Positions 2,222 through 57,588 of a stretch of DNA of 64,000 nt are shown here, in pieces (the stretch's first letter is position 1; the number at the start of each line of letters is the position of its first letter). The stretch covers positions 1 to 64,000 of IMG/VR virus record IMGVR_UViG_3300005336_000003; one strand, given 5' to 3'. Under the pieces are notes generated by a model. That model did not search any database and was not told the DNA's origin. It saw only the letters and a list, made by a program, of their open reading frames with translations. Source of the stretch: a virus. A program made the position numbers and the translations under genes.

Positions 2222-2486
2222 CCACTCTCCCGAAGCCAACGAGAAGCGGGCAGCCATTCTTCGGCTGCTCGCCGATCGTGGCTGGGTATCGCTCAGCCAG
2301 TTCGCGTTCCTGGTAGGATCCGCCTATCCGACAGTCTTGCGGATGCGAGATGCCGGTCAAATCCAAACCCACAGGGTAGGAGGTATCTACAGGGTCTACT
2401 TGGAAGAGTACAACAGATTTCAACGTAGTGGCAACAGGGAAAGAATAGATGACACATGTGACGAGGAGAGCCTACGTTCTTCATAG
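2178..2486 (+). CDS. small MerR/excisionase-like helix-turn-helix protein
   Basis: Up to 102 residues if the GTG at 2178 is used; GTG at 2190 or 2196 and TTG at 2208 are alternatives, and all overlap the preceding stop. The region GWVSLSQFAFLVGSAYPTV followed by RMRDAGQIQTHRVGG fits a winged HTH_17/excisionase DNA-binding domain (helix-turn-helix plus small wing). It lies between the ssDNA-binding gene and queC and overlaps queC by 38 bp. Without an integrase nearby, a regulator or architectural DNA binder is more likely than a true excisionase. Confidence 0.6.
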   Translation: MRPAVPVARALRGSNHSPEANEKRAAILRLLADRGWVSLSQFAFLVGSAYPTVLRMRDAGQIQTHRVGGIYRVYLEEYNRFQRSGNRERIDDTCDEESLRSS

Positions 2487-3252
2487 CGGGGGACTCGACA
2501 GCTCCACTGCTTTGGCAGTGGCCTGTCATCGGCTCGAGGCTGAGATCGACGTGATCTCGGTATCGGTGAATTACGGGCAACGTCATCTGGTTGAGACCGG
2601 CTATGCCAAGAAGCTCTGCGAGTGTCTCGGCATCGAGCACATGGCTGTGGACATGGCAAGGCCTCCCAAGTCGATGCTCACCAACAAGGCCGAGGCAGTG
2701 CCGAACGTCAGCTACGACGAGATCCAAGGCATGTCTCCAACCTACGTTCCCTTCCGCAATGGCCAACTGCTGAGCCGTATTGCCGGCATCGCGCAAGCCT
2801 GGGTGATGGAAGGTAAGGAGCAGATCCTCGAGAACCAGGGAGTTGGCGTTGTCGAGGAGCTGATCCGCCTGCATGGATCCTCGGCAGTTAGCCTCCTGCC
2901 TGATGGCAAGGTACAGCTGGACGAAGACCGCGAGGCAACCGTCTGGTTCGGAGCGCATGCAGAAGATGCCCACAACTGGGCGTATCCGGACTGCACTCCG
3001 GAGTTTGTCGGTGCGATGGCCAATGCCATCTACATTGGCACATACCACAAGGTGCGGCTCGTCACACCATTCATCCACTCTCTCAAGAGCGACATCGTCC
3101 GTTACGGTGACGAGCTCGCCCTGCCTTTCGAGCTGACGTGGAGCTGCTATGTTGGAGGCGACAAGCACTGTGGGATTTGTCCAACCTGCAGGGCGCGCAA
3201 GGAAGCGTTCATCCAGGCAGCCGTCAGGGATCCGACAGTCTACGCCGCCTGA
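2449..3252 (+). CDS. queC: QueC, 7-cyano-7-deazaguanine (preQ0) synthase
   Basis: 267 residues. The N-terminal PP-loop SGGLDSS (13-19) binds ATP, and the C-terminal zinc site uses C233, C241, C244 and C247 (CGICPTC). AEDAHNWAYPDCTPEFV matches the substrate-binding segment of QueC. The enzyme turns 7-carboxy-7-deazaguanine, ammonia and ATP into preQ0. Between the YVPFRN motif and VWFGAHAED lies an insertion of roughly 45 residues absent from typical bacterial QueC. There is no fused glutamine amidotransferase (Gat-QueC), which makes preQ0 rather than an archaeosine-like base the simplest product. It begins the queC-queD-queE-folE-dpdA block. The start has AGGGAAAG upstream. Confidence 0.9.
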   Translation: MTHVTRRAYVLHSGGLDSSTALAVACHRLEAEIDVISVSVNYGQRHLVETGYAKKLCECLGIEHMAVDMARPPKSMLTNKAEAVPNVSYDEIQGMSPTYVPFRNGQLLSRIAGIAQAWVMEGKEQILENQGVGVVEELIRLHGSSAVSLLPDGKVQLDEDREATVWFGAHAEDAHNWAYPDCTPEFVGAMANAIYIGTYHKVRLVTPFIHSLKSDIVRYGDELALPFELTWSCYVGGDKHCGICPTCRARKEAFIQAAVRDPTVYAA

Positions 3253-3293
3253 CTGTCCTCCACAACCACAACCACCATACAAGGGGACATATC

Positions 3294-3584
3294 ATGAGTG
3301 ACGGGCGAGTTGACTTGGGAGACCTGGTGAGGGATCCTATCACGGGGTTCGAAGGCGTGGTCTCAAGCCGTACTGAGTTCTTGTACGGCTGTGTACGATG
3401 CGGCGTCACCTCCCAGACGTTGGACAAGGATGGCAAGGAGCAGATCCTGTCCTTCGACGAGGCAGGGCTGCAGATAGTGGAGGTAGGGAAGTTCAAGCTG
3501 AAGCCCAGCAATGTCTCAACGAGGCCGCCAGGAGGGCCGGAGAGGCGTATCGACAACCTTCCCGAAGCCCCGGCGAGGAGATAG
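3294..3584 (+). CDS. small hypothetical protein with SH3/KOW-like fold pattern
   Basis: 96 residues from ATG 3294 (AAGGGG upstream). The frame is open from further up, but that part overlaps queC out of frame and has no ribosome site. The core GDLVRDPITGFEGVVSSRTEF followed by a Cys-x2-Cys (VRCGV) and a short beta-rich stretch resembles small barrel proteins common in phages. The C-terminal third is basic and Pro-rich. No function is recognised; its place inside the deazaguanine block makes a link to that pathway possible but unproven. Confidence 0.65.
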   Translation: MSDGRVDLGDLVRDPITGFEGVVSSRTEFLYGCVRCGVTSQTLDKDGKEQILSFDEAGLQIVEVGKFKLKPSNVSTRPPGGPERRIDNLPEAPARR

Positions 3585-3587
3585 CCG

Positions 3588-3788
3588 ATGGGGCCAGACC
3601 AGGAAGCTTTGCTGCAGTTCTTCGAGTACAGCCATCTGCCTGTCGCTCTCCAGGCCGCCTCTCAGCCGTTCCACACTCTGGCTCACCACCTAGTGGAAAG
3701 CCTGCCAAGGAATCCGGAGCGTACGACAGCACTGCGCAAACTGCTCGAGGCCAAGGATTGCGCCGTGCGCGCATCCATCTTCAAGTAG
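3588..3788 (+). CDS. small helical-hairpin protein, possibly Acb2/Tad1-like cyclic-nucleotide sponge
   Basis: 66 residues, ATG 3588 with GAGGAG upstream. It shows the pattern F-x-Y-x-H-L-P, then LQxxSxxFxxLA, a P-x-N-P-E-R turn and ALRKLLEAKDCAVRA. That gives an aromatic N-terminus plus two amphipathic helices, resembling the short Acb2/Tad1 hairpin proteins that bind CBASS cyclic dinucleotides or Thoeris signals. It is known that such proteins are widespread in phages; assignment here rests on pattern similarity only. The gene sits between queC and queD, giving a cluster with two potential anti-defence functions. Alternatively it belongs to an unrelated conserved phage family. Confidence 0.6.
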   Translation: MGPDQEALLQFFEYSHLPVALQAASQPFHTLAHHLVESLPRNPERTTALRKLLEAKDCAVRASIFK

Positions 3789-3812
3789 CCCCAACATCAA
3801 GTGAGGCCCAGA

Positions 3813-4391
3813 ATGCCGTTTGGAATGAGTCGGCGGATTGAGATCGACATGGCTCACCGTGTACCGACACACGGATCGAAATGCTGGAACGTGCATGGTC
3901 ACCGCTACGTGATCATCGCAGAAGCCCAGTCGCAGGCATTACAGGAGGGCGGAGAGCAGACGGATATGGTCGTCGACTTCGGTTTCCTGAAGAACGTCAT
4001 GGTGGGGCAGATCTACGACTTCTGCGACCACGGCATGTGTCTATGGATCGACGATCCTTGGCTGGATCGATTCCTCCTGCGACACACCAGTAAGGCTCGC
4101 AAGGTCTGCGAGGAGGAAGGCTGGTACTTCGAGCCTGAAGATAAGGCTCTCGCTCAGACCAAGCTCCTGGTGGTGAATTTCATCCCAACGGCTGAGCGGC
4201 TTGCCGAGTTCTGGTTTCGCCGGATGCTGGCAGGAGTGTCACAGATATCGGGAGGCAAGGCAGCCCTCTCCCAAGTGGTTGTCCAGGAGACTCCCAACGG
4301 GATCGCCTATTACCCTCCAACGATGAAAGCCGCTCCTGGATCGATGTTCACGTCGCTTATCCGGGATAATATGGGGACAACCAATGTCTGA
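3813..4391 (+). CDS. queD: QueD, 6-carboxy-tetrahydropterin synthase
   Basis: 192 residues from ATG 3813; a GTG twelve bases upstream is in frame, but GAGG is better placed for the ATG. Zinc ligands H15, H28 and H30 and the catalytic C24 are present (AHRVP...KCWNVHGHRY). The later motifs FCDHGMCL and VVVQETPNG supply the remaining conserved His and Glu. It converts 7,8-dihydroneopterin triphosphate, made by the FolE encoded downstream, into 6-carboxy-tetrahydropterin. It is longer than bacterial QueD (~120) through inserts around residues 90-125. It overlaps queE by 8 bp, so translation is coupled. Confidence 0.9.
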   Translation: MPFGMSRRIEIDMAHRVPTHGSKCWNVHGHRYVIIAEAQSQALQEGGEQTDMVVDFGFLKNVMVGQIYDFCDHGMCLWIDDPWLDRFLLRHTSKARKVCEEEGWYFEPEDKALAQTKLLVVNFIPTAERLAEFWFRRMLAGVSQISGGKAALSQVVVQETPNGIAYYPPTMKAAPGSMFTSLIRDNMGTTNV

Positions 4392-5151
4392 TGACAAGCC
4401 CAATATCGGGGGCTATCGTAAGCACCCGGTGATGGAGATGTTCGGCCCCACAATCCAAGGTGAGGGGATGCTGTGCGGCCAGGTATCGCACTTCATCAGG
4501 TTCGGAGGTTGTACCTATCGATGTACCTGGTGCGATAGCATGCATGCAGTAGATCCGGATCAGATCAAGGCGCATGCCAAGTACCTGACGGACAACCAGA
4601 TCATGCAGGCAGTCCACCAGCTCAACCCCTCTCCGTGGGTCACGCTGTCCGGAGGAGATCCTTGCATCCACGAGCTGCAGGATCTGGTGGTGAGGCTCAG
4701 GCATGATGGCTTCAAGATAGCGGTTGAGACCCAAGGAGTAATGCGCCGGAGGTGGATTCAGTACTGCCAGGCTGTAACAGTATCTCCGAAGCCTCCAAGC
4801 TCAGGCATGGCTGGCAATCTCAACAGCGCAACGCTTGACTGGTACGTGGATAATCTCGAACCTATCAGGCATCTCGGAATACCCGTCCTAAGCTTCAAGG
4901 TAGTGGTATTCGATCGCGTGGATCTTGATTGGGCTTTGCTCCTCCACCAGAGGTATCCCCGAGTCAGGTTCTTCCTCTCGATCGGGACTGACCGGCCTGA
5001 AGAGGCCGAAGGTCTGATTCTCACCACACAGGGGATCCTGGATCGCTTCAGGACTATCTCCAGTGAGGTGTTGGCCAATCAGGAGTGGCGTAATGTAACA
5101 ATCCTACCCCAGATGCATGCTTTGCTCTGGGGTCATACTCAAGGAGTCTGA
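4384..5151 (+). CDS. queE: QueE, 7-carboxy-7-deazaguanine synthase (radical SAM)
   Basis: 255 residues. TIQGEG (23-28) and the radical-SAM cluster motif GGCTYRCTWC (C43, C47, C50) are canonical for QueE. SGGDPCIH replaces the usual SGGEP. The enzyme uses a 4Fe-4S cluster and S-adenosylmethionine to contract 6-carboxy-tetrahydropterin to 7-carboxy-7-deazaguanine, the QueC substrate. It starts within the end of queD and ends three bases before folE, showing a tightly coupled operon. The pathway order in the operon is queC, queD, queE, folE, not the reaction order. Confidence 0.92.
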   Translation: MSDDKPNIGGYRKHPVMEMFGPTIQGEGMLCGQVSHFIRFGGCTYRCTWCDSMHAVDPDQIKAHAKYLTDNQIMQAVHQLNPSPWVTLSGGDPCIHELQDLVVRLRHDGFKIAVETQGVMRRRWIQYCQAVTVSPKPPSSGMAGNLNSATLDWYVDNLEPIRHLGIPVLSFKVVVFDRVDLDWALLLHQRYPRVRFFLSIGTDRPEEAEGLILTTQGILDRFRTISSEVLANQEWRNVTILPQMHALLWGHTQGV

Positions 5152-5153
5152 TC

Positions 5154-5909
5154 GTGGCAATTCGGAAGAACCGGAAGACCTCCACATCGCGCAAGGCTGG
5201 CAAGAAGGTAAGCTCTCCTCGGAAGCCCCACAAGACCGTCGAGAACTTCGAGACCTTCGATTATGCGCCTGCCGATATGATGGGAGCAGCAGAGGAGACG
5301 GCCGGCGAAGAGATCTGGAAGGGAACTCCCGTGCATCCCCAGCAGAGCTACCGCGAGGAGCTGATTCGGGACGCCCTGTGGGGAATATTCGGCTCAACCC
5401 TGAGCACCGAAGCCTACCAGAAGACTCCTGGGAGGTTCCTACGATACCTCGGGGAGTTCAACCGTCAATCTGACACCTCCGAAGTATTGGGAGAGCTATT
5501 CGAGGGACCGCGAGCCGAGGGGATCCACGGCTTGGTTGTCCAACGCAACATCCCTTTCCGGATGTGCTGCGAGCACCATCTGCTTCCGGCTGTAGGGAAG
5601 GCCTTCCTCGGCTACATCCCCAACACTAAGGTCGTAGGGCTGAGCAAGCTGGCTCGCCTGGTGGATGCTATCGGCACCAGCCGCCCGAGCATGCAGGAGC
5701 TGCTGTGTGAGGAGATCGTCGATACCCTCGACCGCTATACCAATGCCAAAGGAGTGATCTGCGTCATCGACTCCGAGCACTCCTGCATGGCTTGCAGGGG
5801 AGTCAACGTTCCGGGAGTGTCAACCTCAACCTCATGCGTGCGGGGAATCTTTCGGGATGTCCCAGCAGCGCGGAGTGAGTTCTTCTCGCTCATCGGCCGG
5901 AGGGAGTAG
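5154..5909 (+). CDS. folE: GTP cyclohydrolase I (FolE)
   Basis: 251 residues from GTG 5154, with AAGGAG seven bases upstream. The C-terminal ~190 residues are FolE: FRMCCEHHLLP (zinc Cys/His around 138-142), VVGLSKLARLVD, RPSMQELL and EHSCMACRGV. It opens GTP to 7,8-dihydroneopterin triphosphate, the first step of preQ0 synthesis. The first ~35 residues are Lys/Arg/Ser-rich and not part of the usual enzyme; they may be disordered or bind nucleic acid. A phage-borne FolE would raise flux into deazaguanine independent of host folate control. Confidence 0.92.
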   Translation: MAIRKNRKTSTSRKAGKKVSSPRKPHKTVENFETFDYAPADMMGAAEETAGEEIWKGTPVHPQQSYREELIRDALWGIFGSTLSTEAYQKTPGRFLRYLGEFNRQSDTSEVLGELFEGPRAEGIHGLVVQRNIPFRMCCEHHLLPAVGKAFLGYIPNTKVVGLSKLARLVDAIGTSRPSMQELLCEEIVDTLDRYTNAKGVICVIDSEHSCMACRGVNVPGVSTSTSCVRGIFRDVPAARSEFFSLIGRRE

Positions 5910-5913
5910 CCAC

Positions 5914-6693
5914 ATGACCCAATTCGCACCTGTTGCTCCTCCCCAATTGCTACGTGCCCTGAGGGAGCAGGGCGAGCATGTGGTGGGCAGGTACCACCTC
6001 TTGCTGGCTCACGATGTAGCAGCCAAGCCCCATGAGTACAAGGAGCTGCTGCCTCCCAACAGCATGGTGATCATGGACAACAGCATCATCGAGCTGGGCT
6101 ACCCTGTGACTCCGCAAGTCATGGGGACGGCTCTGAGTATCGTACCCTCCCAAGTAGTCGTACTTCCTGACGTGATCAGGAAGAAGGACGAGACTCTGGA
6201 GCTGTCCTTCAGGGGTGCCGACTTCTTCAGCAACCTGCTCAACTTCGGTACGCAGCAATTCATGGTCGTTCCTCAAGGCAACTCCCTGGAGGAACTGAAG
6301 GAATGTGCCTACGAGATGCGCTACATCGAGGGTGTAGGCTGTTGGGGAGTCGGGAGGTTCGTGACCGAGATGCTCGGCAGCCGCGCAGAGTTCGTCAAGT
6401 GGCTGTGGGAGACTCGGGAGCTGCACCTAGCAGCTCGCAAGCATGGGCCGTTCATTCACCTGCTTGGGTTCTCCGAGAATATGGAGGATGACATCGCGTG
6501 CGCCAAGCTGCCAGGCGTTCTGGGGATCGATTCGGCTGTCCCAGTACGTATGGGCCAGAACAGGCAGATGATCTCTCGGAAGCAGAAGGCACACGCACCT
6601 CGAGGCGATTGGTGGGATACCGCAGTGCCTTTCATCCATCCGGAGACGGTCGCGAATCTCAGCCTCGTGCGCAGCTGGATCCAATACGGCTAG
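5914..6693 (+). CDS. dpdA: DpdA-like DNA 7-deazaguanine transglycosylase
   Basis: 259 residues; the ATG at 5914 has GGAGGGAG upstream. It is a compact relative of tRNA-guanine transglycosylase (TIM-barrel). Visible segments are MDNSIIELG (54-62), VVVLPDVIRK, FMVVPQGNS, VGCWGVGRFV, FIHLLGFSE and VLGIDSAVPVR, as in phage DpdA proteins that exchange guanine in DNA for preQ0. Aspartates in MDNSI (D55), LPDVI (D86) and GIDS are candidates for catalysis. It directly follows the preQ0 genes and closes the block. The expected effect is modified phage DNA resistant to restriction. Which DpdA subtype it is cannot be told by eye. Confidence 0.85.
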   Translation: MTQFAPVAPPQLLRALREQGEHVVGRYHLLLAHDVAAKPHEYKELLPPNSMVIMDNSIIELGYPVTPQVMGTALSIVPSQVVVLPDVIRKKDETLELSFRGADFFSNLLNFGTQQFMVVPQGNSLEELKECAYEMRYIEGVGCWGVGRFVTEMLGSRAEFVKWLWETRELHLAARKHGPFIHLLGFSENMEDDIACAKLPGVLGIDSAVPVRMGQNRQMISRKQKAHAPRGDWWDTAVPFIHPETVANLSLVRSWIQYG

Positions 6694-7357: not shown

Positions 7358-7597
7358 ATGACCATGGTAGTGGAGTCAGCATCTTTCAAGCGTGACGGGG
7401 CTTGGCGCGAGCTGACGTTCATGTACACGAACTACAAGATGGAGACCGAGCGTCGGCATGTCCTGCCGATGCGTGTCTGGTACGGTAGCTCAGCCTACCA
7501 TCAAGGTGAGCAGTGGTTCCTGAATGCTCTGGACCTGGACAAGAACGAGTACCGCAATTTTGCCATGCGTGACATGAAGGACGTAGCCACCCGATGA
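7358..7597 (+). CDS. WYL-like domain small protein
   Basis: 79 residues from ATG 7358, which has a strong AGGAGG. The body is like the WYL-type small beta domains of phages: LTFMYTNYKMETERRHVLP, then RVWYGSSAYHQGEQWFLNA and ALDLDKNEYRNFAMRDM. WYL domains can bind nucleic acids or nucleotide ligands. The frame stays open back to ATG 7151, which touches the preceding stop; that 69-residue stretch is Arg-rich without recognisable domain, so the longer form is possible but less likely. It overlaps the polymerase start by 4 bp. Confidence 0.65.
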   Translation: MTMVVESASFKRDGAWRELTFMYTNYKMETERRHVLPMRVWYGSSAYHQGEQWFLNALDLDKNEYRNFAMRDMKDVATR

Positions 7598-10266
7598 AGC
7601 AATCCGGGCCGGCTCAGAAATATGAGAGCTGTCTCCTACCGTGTGAGAACTGCCCATATGGTGGTCCGAAGGTAGGATCAAGAGGAAACCCTAAGGCCAG
7701 GGTTGTTTTTGTAGGGGAAGCTCCTGGTACTCAGGAGATGGTGCACAAGACACCTCTGACGGGCCCATCAGGAGAGGTGTTCTGGAGAACCCTCCCGCTT
7801 GCAGTCCAGCTACTGGAGTGGGGTATCGACACCTCAGATGACATACTGATCCTGAACGCTTGCCAATGCTTACCGCCACGTTCAAAAGACGCCCAGAAGA
7901 ATATGGCGGCAGTGACAAAAGGAGCGGCTGCATGCCAATCACGATTGCTTGGGCAGGTTATGGAGCACCCCCGAGACCTGATAGTGGCAATGGGGAACCA
8001 CGCATTACGTTCACTGACTGGGAACTCTGGCTACAAGATCACCCAGATTCGGGGACAACTTTTGCCATCTTCGATGGCTCGTATCGGCTTGTTGCCTGTC
8101 TTACATCCTGCAGCGCTGTTACGTGGAACAGGGAATTATCGGCAGTTCCGGGAGGACATCGCATACTGCTTCGACCTCCTGAACGGAATACCGCCGAAGA
8201 AGCCTGTGGTTCCTCGGTGGTTGGTTCTACGTAACGGATTCCAAGTAAGGCAGCTCGCTAAAGCGTTGAAATCTAAACCGTTTATCGCGTGCGATACGGA
8301 GACTGGGGGTTTCAATCAGCTGACCGATGAGGTCCTGGCGGTTGGGATTTGCGCGGACGCGGACCTTGTTTACATCATCCCTGAGCGGTTGGTGCCTCTC
8401 CTGAAGGCTCTATTTGAGGAAGCCGAGGGTAGGTTCATCTGGCACAACGGCAAGTTTGATATGCGGTTCATGAAGCGGGAGCTTGGTGAGATAGCCCGCT
8501 GCGATGAAGATACCATGCTCCTGTCCTACGCTCTGGATGAACAGGGAGGGATTCACGATCTGGAGCAGGTAGGGAACGACCTCATCGGAGCGCCCGACTA
8601 CAAGCATATGCTCAAACCCTACCTGCCAAACAAGAAGACCTCTTACCGAGTTATTCCTAAGCCTATTCTATATCGTTACCTGGCTCTCGATACGAGCAAT
8701 ACCAGGCAGGTATTCGACATCCTCAGGGCGAGAGTTTCCGCTGATCCAAACCTGGAAAAGCTCTACACCAAAGTCCTGATGAAGGCATCTGAGTTCCTGT
8801 ACAGAGTCGAGACCCAAGGTATTGCCGTATGCCCCAACAGGGTGGAAAACCAATCCAAGAGGCTGCAGGGAGAGATCGATGATGCCTATGCAAGGCTGCA
8901 AGCTGTGGCTAAGCAGGCCGGATACGTAGGGGAGCTTAACCCGAATAGTCCCAGGCAGCTAGCTGTAGTCCTGTTTGACCTACTCAAGCTGAAGCCGAAG
9001 AGGCCAGGCAATCGCTCGACTGCTAAGGCAGTCCTACTTGAGCTCCCTGCGCATCCAGTTATCAAAGGGTTGCAGGACTACCGGAAGGCCAAGAAGGCCA
9101 AGAGTACCTATGTAGACTCCCTAGTGCGCAACGTCAACATTGATGGAAGAGTCCATGCCACATACCTCATTCACGGGACCCGCAGTGGGCGGCTTTCTTC
9201 TCGTGGACCAAACATGCAAAACGTACCGCGCGGGCCTGCTATCCGCAGTATGTACATGGCCTCAACTGCTCACGTATTCATTAAGGCAGACCTCAATCAG
9301 GCTGAATTGCGGTCACTTGCTGTACTCTCGGGAGACGAGTACCTGCTGGGAGTGTATGCGCCAGGCAGTAAGAGAAAGCTTCACCATGAGACTGCTGAAG
9401 AGTTCTTCCCCGGCTGGACTGCGCGCGGCAGGGATAAGAATCCTGAAGGCCTAGAGCAGCTGATGAGGGCCAAGGCTGTGAACTTTGGGATTGTGTACGG
9501 GAGAACCGCCCCGTCGATTGCCGAGGAGTTCAAGATCAGTGTAGGGGAAGCCCAGAAGTTCATCGACAAGTGGGCTAAGCGTAGTCCGAAGGCTTGGGAG
9601 TTTATCGGCAAATGCCGAGCTGCACCTTTGAAGGGCCAGAACTTGGTGACGGTATTCGGCCGCAAGAAGCGGCACTGGATAGTCACGCAAGAGAACCTGA
9701 TGGGTCTGCAGAACGAGGCTTCCAACTTCCCGCATCAGTCCATCGCACACGATATCTGCCTACTAGGAGGAGCAAAGGCAGCTCCTATCCTGAGGCCGTT
9801 TGGAATCAATCCGGTTAATGAGGTACACGATGAGGTAATGTTCGAATGCCCAGATATCCCAGAGGTGATAGCCTGGGCTAAGCATGTGATCGTCACCTGT
9901 CTAGAGTCGATAGCCCCTGAGTGGGGTCTGACTAAGATACCGTTCATAGCCGAAGCCGACGTTGGCCGTAGGTGGTCTATATACAGGAATCCAAGGGAGT
10001 TCAGGTATGAATACCAGCCCAGCAATCCAGAAGAGTGGTACATCCCCAATGAAGCCGTCCTTAGGGCTCTTGCCTCTAGGGATGCGCACGGAGATGTACT
10101 GGAAGGTCAGCTCGGGGTGGAGAAACCCGCGCCTACCTGGAGTGCCTCTGAGTTGGGCTCTGACGACGATGAGGACGATTCAGACTGGACTTCCGACGAC
10201 GGCTCGACTGTCTGGGGCTTTGCTCCAACTACAGACCGAGATGATCTCTGGCCCGAAGCAACCTAA
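7594..10266 (+). CDS. DNA polymerase: family-4-like UDG domain fused to 3'-5' exonuclease and family-A polymerase
   Basis: 890 residues. Residues 1-~195 resemble family-4 uracil-DNA glycosylase: Cys at 13, 17, 20, 90, 92 and 114 could hold the 4Fe-4S cluster, GEAPGTQE (41-48) is the motif-1 loop and VLHPAALLR (169-177) the motif-2 loop. A DnaQ-like exonuclease follows (DTET at 234, HNGKFDMRF at 284-292, YLALD to 366). The polymerase has motif A DLNQAELRS (~566), motif B with K...FGIVYG (~628-640) and motif C EVHDE (~744). The last ~80 residues are acidic and disordered. A glycosylase domain on a replicative polymerase could read or remove uracil ahead of synthesis; whether it is catalytic is unknown. 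Confidence 0.9.
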   Translation: MKQSGPAQKYESCLLPCENCPYGGPKVGSRGNPKARVVFVGEAPGTQEMVHKTPLTGPSGEVFWRTLPLAVQLLEWGIDTSDDILILNACQCLPPRSKDAQKNMAAVTKGAAACQSRLLGQVMEHPRDLIVAMGNHALRSLTGNSGYKITQIRGQLLPSSMARIGLLPVLHPAALLRGTGNYRQFREDIAYCFDLLNGIPPKKPVVPRWLVLRNGFQVRQLAKALKSKPFIACDTETGGFNQLTDEVLAVGICADADLVYIIPERLVPLLKALFEEAEGRFIWHNGKFDMRFMKRELGEIARCDEDTMLLSYALDEQGGIHDLEQVGNDLIGAPDYKHMLKPYLPNKKTSYRVIPKPILYRYLALDTSNTRQVFDILRARVSADPNLEKLYTKVLMKASEFLYRVETQGIAVCPNRVENQSKRLQGEIDDAYARLQAVAKQAGYVGELNPNSPRQLAVVLFDLLKLKPKRPGNRSTAKAVLLELPAHPVIKGLQDYRKAKKAKSTYVDSLVRNVNIDGRVHATYLIHGTRSGRLSSRGPNMQNVPRGPAIRSMYMASTAHVFIKADLNQAELRSLAVLSGDEYLLGVYAPGSKRKLHHETAEEFFPGWTARGRDKNPEGLEQLMRAKAVNFGIVYGRTAPSIAEEFKISVGEAQKFIDKWAKRSPKAWEFIGKCRAAPLKGQNLVTVFGRKKRHWIVTQENLMGLQNEASNFPHQSIAHDICLLGGAKAAPILRPFGINPVNEVHDEVMFECPDIPEVIAWAKHVIVTCLESIAPEWGLTKIPFIAEADVGRRWSIYRNPREFRYEYQPSNPEEWYIPNEAVLRALASRDAHGDVLEGQLGVEKPAPTWSASELGSDDDEDDSDWTSDDGSTVWGFAPTTDRDDLWPEAT

Positions 10267-56907: not shown

Positions 56908-57122
56908 AAGATCCTGATTGGCCCGAGTGCACCAGAAGAACGAGTGATAGATGCGAAGGGGATGTAAATCCTGTACGATGGTACCTAGGCTATCACTGGT
57001 GCTTAGCTTGTGCTGACGGGCCAAAGACGTACGTATCCGTACAGATGCACAAGTCAAACGCAGTGCTTGTAACTAGCCGTGAGGAATTGAAGTATGTCGG
57101 AGTCAAGACCCCCCGAGAGTAG
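56901..57122 (+). CDS. small cysteine-rich protein with no standard start codon
   Basis: 73 residues if begun at CTG 56901, which has GGAGGA seven bases upstream inside the previous gene. No ATG, GTG or TTG start is in frame. PECTRR, RCEG and HWCLACADG supply four cysteines spaced like a zinc ribbon, so the frame looks real. A frameshift from the upstream gene is another way to make it. It overlaps the phosphoribosyltransferase by 29 bp. Confidence 0.5.
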   Translation: MVEDPDWPECTRRTSDRCEGDVNPVRWYLGYHWCLACADGPKTYVSVQMHKSNAVLVTSREELKYVGVKTPRE

Positions 57123-57588
57123 CCCGCGCGAATATCTCACCTGGGGTTACATCTCATCCCTGTGCGAGATCATCTGCGTCAAGATGTCGAGGATCCCGTT
57201 CAAGCCTATAGGTATTATTGCAGTGTCTCGTGGAGGGCTTGTACCTGCTGCGATCATTGCCAACAAACTCGGGATCAGAGACGTCCATGTATTGGCAATC
57301 CAATCGTACGAGGATATCGTCAGCAAGATCATCCTCGACAAGGTACCTAAAGCCCAGCCACTGTATCCCCTGTTTGTCCCTGATATCCCCTACAAGGGTC
57401 ACCTATTCTTGGTGGTGGACGACATCTGCGATTCCGGTGCTACGCAGGCATTCATCCGCGAGACTTGGCCCATAGCCATGAGGGCATGTTTGGTCGTAAA
57501 GACTCCCCCAAGACTTGCAGGTACTCCCCACATAGCGGGAGCTTACCGGCCGCAGGGACAGTGGATAGTCTTCCCGTGGGAGGAGTAA
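57094..57588 (+). CDS. type I phosphoribosyltransferase
   Basis: 164 residues, GAGGAA upstream. VSRGGLVPA (early loop), LFLVVDDICDSGAT (PRPP-binding motif) and WIVFPWE (late) resemble xanthine/guanine phosphoribosyltransferases. These attach bases to PRPP; in this phage it could salvage guanine or a deazaguanine, but the substrate is unknown. Confidence 0.8.
   Translation: MSESRPPESSPREYLTWGYISSLCEIICVKMSRIPFKPIGIIAVSRGGLVPAAIIANKLGIRDVHVLAIQSYEDIVSKIILDKVPKAQPLYPLFVPDIPYKGHLFLVVDDICDSGATQAFIRETWPIAMRACLVVKTPPRLAGTPHIAGAYRPQGQWIVFPWEE

Follow-up and report, generated by a model that had tools for sequence, protein, structure and literature searches.

A phage gene module predicted to make preQ0 and to place it in DNA through a Firehammervirus-type guanine transglycosylase

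In Escherichia phage CAjan and Mycobacterium phage Rosebush, a DpdA enzyme encoded together with FolE, QueD, QueE and QueC gives rise to dPreQ0 in the phage DNA, and deletion of dpdA in CAjan resulted in loss of the modified base (PMC6884629). The enzyme of both phages is of the DpdA1 type, and dPreQ0 was found at 28-32% of G. In the Campylobacter phages of the genus Firehammervirus, 7-deazaguanine derivatives reportedly take the place of all dG (PMC10273834), and the modified base was reported as dADG (PMC6884629 citing Crippen et al.), with no DpdA known in this group as of 2019 (PMC6884629). Phages that replace guanine resist many restriction enzymes, and they raise the question of how DNA without normal G is read, packaged and repaired.

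The window analyzed here, a stretch of 64,000 nucleotides, covers nearly all of a virus record of 64,236 bases (IMG/VR record IMGVR_UViG_3300005336_000003) with a genome G+C content of 56%. No close DNA match for positions 1-25000 was found in the phage collection. A first-pass annotation had placed a coupled run of preQ0 genes and a DpdA-like gene at positions 2449-6693, and both the location and the gene content were found to be correct. The run is tightly packed, with gaps of 41, 3, 12, -8, 2 and 4 bases, in order, from queC to the dpdA-like gene. The genes are as follows.

2449..3252, + strand: queC, 7-cyano-7-deazaguanine (preQ0) synthase (Pfam QueC 159.7 bits; SGGLDS; four-Cys zinc motif; alignments)
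3294..3584, + strand: small gene between queC and queD, 96 aa, phrog_16275 (PHROG match)
3588..3788, + strand: small helical protein between queC and queD, 66 aa, phrog_1761/5120 (PHROG match)
3801..4391, + strand (GTG 3801 or ATG 3813 start): queD, 6-carboxytetrahydropterin synthase (Pfam PTPS 78.6 bits; catalytic motifs)
4384..5151, + strand: queE (NCBIfam TIGR03365 235 bits, cut-off 206; phrog_2076)
5154..5909, + strand: folE, GTP cyclohydrolase I (Pfam GTP_cyclohydroI 149 bits; zinc ligand motifs)
5914..6693, + strand: dpdA-like predicted DNA guanine transglycosylase, 259 aa, TGT fold, kin of Firehammervirus and immuto proteins (AF2, Foldseek, family profile, invariant residues)

The identity of the four pathway enzymes was computed directly. 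All four scored above the curated Pfam cut-offs (QueC, 22; PTPS, 22.4; Radical_SAM, 29.5; GTP_cyclohydroI, 27), the queE product reaching 33.3 bits for Radical_SAM and also exceeding the NCBIfam equivalog cut-off (TIGR03365). QueC, QueD and FolE fell under the stricter NCBIfam equivalog cut-offs, QueD for instance with 60 bits against the 89 required for TIGR03367, and retained their catalytic and zinc motifs; such scores may be compatible with divergent phage proteins. Key catalytic or metal motifs, as had been claimed for each pathway gene, were present in QueC (SGGLDS and C-x7-C-x2-C-x2-C), QueD (C-x3-HGH and DH), QueE (C-x3-C-x2-C) and FolE (CCEHH and HSCMAC). FolE also has an N-terminal extension of about 70 aa. 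The phage thus encodes FolE, QueD, QueE and QueC, the set that characterizes the preQ0 type (Hutinet 2019 group 2). It was also observed that QueC carries an insertion at residues about 118-160 (window 2799-2929), after the conserved FRNGQLLS motif, which is longer than in the closest relatives.

The 259-aa dpdA-like protein had no match in Pfam, NCBIfam or PADLOC, and its PHROG match was to a family of unknown function only, so that the DpdA call needed proof. This call lay beyond the reach of the curated profile libraries, and kinship with TGT was settled by the predicted structure. The AlphaFold2 model, obtained from an alignment of 17 sequences (relatives from viral contigs and Brevundimonas phages), had a mean pLDDT of 92.9 and a pTM of 0.91. 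When the model was compared with the PDB by Foldseek, all 50 listed matches were tRNA-guanine transglycosylases (E about 1e-7, probability 1.00), and the viral fold matches included proteins annotated as tRNA guanine transglycosylase or queuine tRNA-ribosyltransferase. The dpdA-like protein is therefore a predicted member of the TGT fold. In searches of PDB sequences, the first family profile gave chance matches only; a 21-member family profile gave as its best match the DNA-guanine transglycosylase 7ui4, at a weak E of 0.014, followed by queuine tRNA-ribosyltransferases at E about 0.34. D55, D86, D206, H182, L184 and G185 (H182-x-L-G) were invariant over 21 divergent family members, a result computed directly, as was the fold. 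Their order and local sequence, mapped by eye, suggest that D55, D86 and D206 are the counterparts of the D102, D156 and D280 motifs of TGT. Codon positions 1, 2 and 3 of the gene differed by 25, 16 and 56%, respectively, between the window and a relative (L003), indicating purifying selection. The earlier DpdA-like designation consequently agrees with the predicted TGT fold, the conserved aspartates and the linkage to preQ0 genes, and has no curated-profile support.

To place the enzyme among its relatives, the family profile was searched against 637 sequences. Hits were obtained to immuto DpdA (74 bits), to a CJLB-12 (Firehammervirus) protein annotated as hypothetical (52 bits, E 1.4e-15; hhalign 97.6%) and to a protein of phiST (43 bits). 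The search of these 637 sequences missed E. coli TGT, nt-1 DpdA2 and both DpdA1 proteins (9g, CAjan); with filters off, CAjan DpdA appeared at E 8.7 and nt-1 DpdA2 at E 0.07. Likewise, hhalign to the single E. coli TGT, 9g and nt-1 sequences showed no homology (nt-1, 1.4%). Judged by these sequence comparisons, the window enzyme is neither of the DpdA1 type (9g, CAjan) nor of the DpdA2 type (nt-1), and it groups with the Firehammervirus and immuto proteins. In the tree, the window protein fell within a 14-sequence clade (support 100/99) that a long branch separates from the Firehammervirus/immuto pair; with branches of such length, the deeper order is uncertain. The Firehammervirus protein sits on a separate deep branch. 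It shares 44% identity with immuto DpdA and about 22% with the window protein.

Like the window, the Firehammervirus phages CP220, CPt10, CP21, F379 and CJLB-12 encode a homologous transglycosylase of ~259 aa and a QueC of their own; in contrast to the window, their queC gene does not adjoin the transglycosylase gene. The homologue was present in 15 Campylobacter phage records, including the first four of these phages, and in CJLB-12 it corresponds to a protein annotated as hypothetical (L037:6001-6777). It is likely the enzyme that carries out base exchange in the Campylobacter phages with dADG. Cui et al. are said to have named, in 2023, a DpdA3 subfamily tied to complete replacement. The family that joins the window and Firehammervirus-type proteins may correspond to DpdA3, and the CJLB-12 and other Firehammervirus homologues presumably already bear that name. 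No experiments on any member of the window transglycosylase family were found in the accessible literature, and no relatives of the protein were confirmed in bacterial or archaeal genomes. The records of Bacillus phages BSTP5, BSTP10 and BSTP12 give the dpdA-like gene the names integrase, polynucleotide kinase or NadR, which are likely misannotations.

The linkage of the transglycosylase gene to the pathway genes, also computed directly, was conserved. The preQ0 genes adjoined the dpdA-like gene, in similar order, in all 18 family loci for which the upstream sequence was inspected, and a family A polymerase gene also adjoined it in those loci, where the contig reaches (L011 and L013 end early at contig ends); most module-bearing loci were found via the transglycosylase gene. 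Because the gene set recurs in 18 loci and the codon positions show purifying selection, the module is not a chance assembly. The same arrangement of preQ0 genes and family A polymerase beside a dpdA-like gene was found in Bacillus phage BSP7 and Weizmannia phage Youna2, and preQ0 genes flank the dpdA-like gene in Cellulophaga phiST and Flavobacterium immuto. The Brevundimonas phages vB_BpoS-StAshley and MaInes share with the window the order queC, queD, queE, dpdA-like gene and polA, as well as Sak4-like and SSB genes upstream; their DpdA-like protein is 33% identical to that of the window and is annotated as hypothetical. Unlike in the window, folE of StAshley lies 7 kb downstream, with a phosphoribosyltransferase gene. 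Immuto resembles the window in having a DpdA, annotated as DNA guanine transglycosylase, with queD, queE and folE near; it differs in that a gene annotated QueF is also present and its DpdA is far from the window clade. Profiles, structure prediction and this conserved neighbourhood together back the complete GTP-to-preQ0 set with DpdA proposed in the first-pass annotation.

These findings make it highly likely that the genes form an operon-like module through which the phage makes preQ0 from GTP and a TGT-fold enzyme exchanges guanine in the phage's own DNA, blocking restriction. The steps assigned to FolE, QueD, QueE and QueC, and the base exchange, are established chemistry of these enzyme families. 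FolE would convert GTP to dihydroneopterin triphosphate, which QueD would convert to carboxytetrahydropterin, QueE to CDG and QueC to preQ0. After replication, the TGT-fold enzyme would exchange preQ0 for guanine in duplex phage DNA with release of guanine, and the modified DNA would block enzymes whose recognition involves guanine N7, restriction endonucleases above all. We infer both the action on DNA rather than tRNA and the protection from restriction; it is very probable that the phage thereby hides its genome from the restriction enzymes of bacteria, a strategy already known. The present analysis adds predicted-fold support, sets the enzyme apart from DpdA1 and DpdA2, links it to the Firehammervirus type and makes the extent of dG replacement a testable question.

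Several lines of evidence bear on the choice of base. The report that Gat-QueC, QueF and ArcS-like genes were lacking, as in the preQ0 type (no ArcS, QueF/QueF-L or Gat-QueC; Hutinet 2019 group 2), was confirmed by Pfam searches across the window's whole record, which were empty for QueF (PF14489), GATase_6 (PF13522) and the TGT domain (PF01702, which should catch ArcS too), and by an alignment showing that QueC is not fused to a glutamine amidotransferase domain. YhhQ (PF02592) was also absent across the record, and no other obvious base-modifying enzyme was found among the non-structural genes with Pfam, PHROGs, PADLOC and NCBIfam. The window therefore shares with CAjan and Rosebush a FolE, QueD, QueE and QueC set without amidotransferase or QueF. 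It differs from both in its transglycosylase, since their DpdA1 is unmatched by the window family profile, and from CAjan in that the latter encodes a putative preQ0 transporter and the window does not.

Weak QueF matches seen in some relatives were read as FolE; the one checked sits inside StAshley folE, both being T-fold enzymes. Matches to DpdE among the window proteins reflected similarity of a kind general to SNF2 helicases; helicases of the DISARM, Zorya and BREX systems were matched too.

Since QueF, Gat-QueC, TGT/ArcS-like and YhhQ genes are missing and the QueC resembles preQ0-forming enzymes, preQ0 is the base that we infer, with reasonable though not strong confidence over ADG. The same module could instead deliver another base, such as ADG, if QueC halted at the amide intermediate or the nitrile were hydrated later. 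The nearest chemically typed kin of the transglycosylase is that of Firehammervirus, with dADG (PMC6884629 citing Crippen et al.), and CJLB-12 encodes a QueC as well. However, the Firehammervirus QueC has GSNH in place of GQRH, FPDC in place of YPDC and A in place of the G that precedes the D-motif in the E. coli and CAjan enzymes. At these positions the window QueC agrees with those two preQ0-forming enzymes. Residues of preQ0-forming QueC are thus lost in the one ADG phage compared and kept in the window, which makes an ADG-type product unlikely here. A separate observation concerns phiST (L038), which has queD, queE, folE and a dpdA-like gene, and no QueC match in its record; its base may therefore be CDG or a decarboxylated derivative.

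The possibility that the pathway boosts host tRNA queuosine and that the TGT-like protein works on tRNA was considered, as preQ0 is a precursor common to tRNA queuosine and such a role was suggested for phages with preQ0 genes but without DpdA (PMC6884629). In contrast, the only cysteines of the dpdA-like protein are C131, C143 and C196, so that the zinc-binding cluster of tRNA TGT is absent; the protein had no match to the tRNA TGT domain (Pfam PF01702), and E. coli TGT exceeds it in length by about 115 aa. A QueF homologue that could make preQ1 was not found, the gene adjoins phage replication genes in the examined loci, and its relatives occur in phages with fully replaced dG. A role in tRNA is hence very improbable. 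Entry of the modified base as a dNTP via the phage polymerase, with another role for the TGT-like protein, was formerly considered for Campylobacter phages (PMC6884629) and could draw on the window's xanthine phosphoribosyltransferase and family A polymerase with uracil-DNA-glycosylase domain, but it is hardly credible given that the transglycosylase gene is conserved in module-bearing loci, though most were found through it, and that the phosphoribosyltransferase is patchy among relatives.

With preQ0 exchange in phage DNA as the preferred reading, the extent of replacement can be considered. The kinship of the enzyme to Firehammervirus proteins makes extensive replacement plausible, and by this analogy near-complete replacement of dG would be a live alternative to replacement of part of it. 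More tentatively, and with the odds rather against it, the 14-sequence window clade may be an unnamed Firehammervirus-type branch that replaces all or nearly all G with preQ0, as opposed to roughly 30% with DpdA1. No DNA chemistry of StAshley or MaInes is reported in PMC10070969; this isolated Brevundimonas phage pair carries the module, so that both the share of dG replaced and the identity of the base are amenable to testing in a laboratory phage. The Firehammervirus-type transglycosylase, missed by Pfam, NCBIfam and PHROG annotation, co-occurs with complete preQ0 operons in various phages, and the family profile offers a way to find these enzymes where records call them hypothetical, NadR, integrase or kinase.

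Further observations were made on genes within and outside the module. A xanthine/guanine phosphoribosyltransferase gene lies at window positions 57094-57588; similar genes are found close to folE in two phages, StAshley and immuto, as well as in phiST, and are absent from most relatives. The enzyme might salvage guanine freed by base exchange, which we offer as an idea only. Beside the module, and conserved there, the family A DNA polymerase (window 7594-10266) has an N-terminal uracil-DNA-glycosylase domain fused to the exonuclease and polymerase domains. The 96-aa protein (3294-3584) had no match in Pfam, NCBIfam or PADLOC searches. For the 66-aa protein (3588-3788), the sequence pattern had suggested an Acb2-type anti-CBASS sponge; neither Pfam, nor a sequence search of the PDB, nor a fold search with a model of pLDDT 87 supported this. 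The 66-aa protein is frequent, not constant, in relatives, where its position varies (L006, L008, L009 and L013), and its family was found in 315 phage records; those listed with an annotation call it a hypothetical protein.
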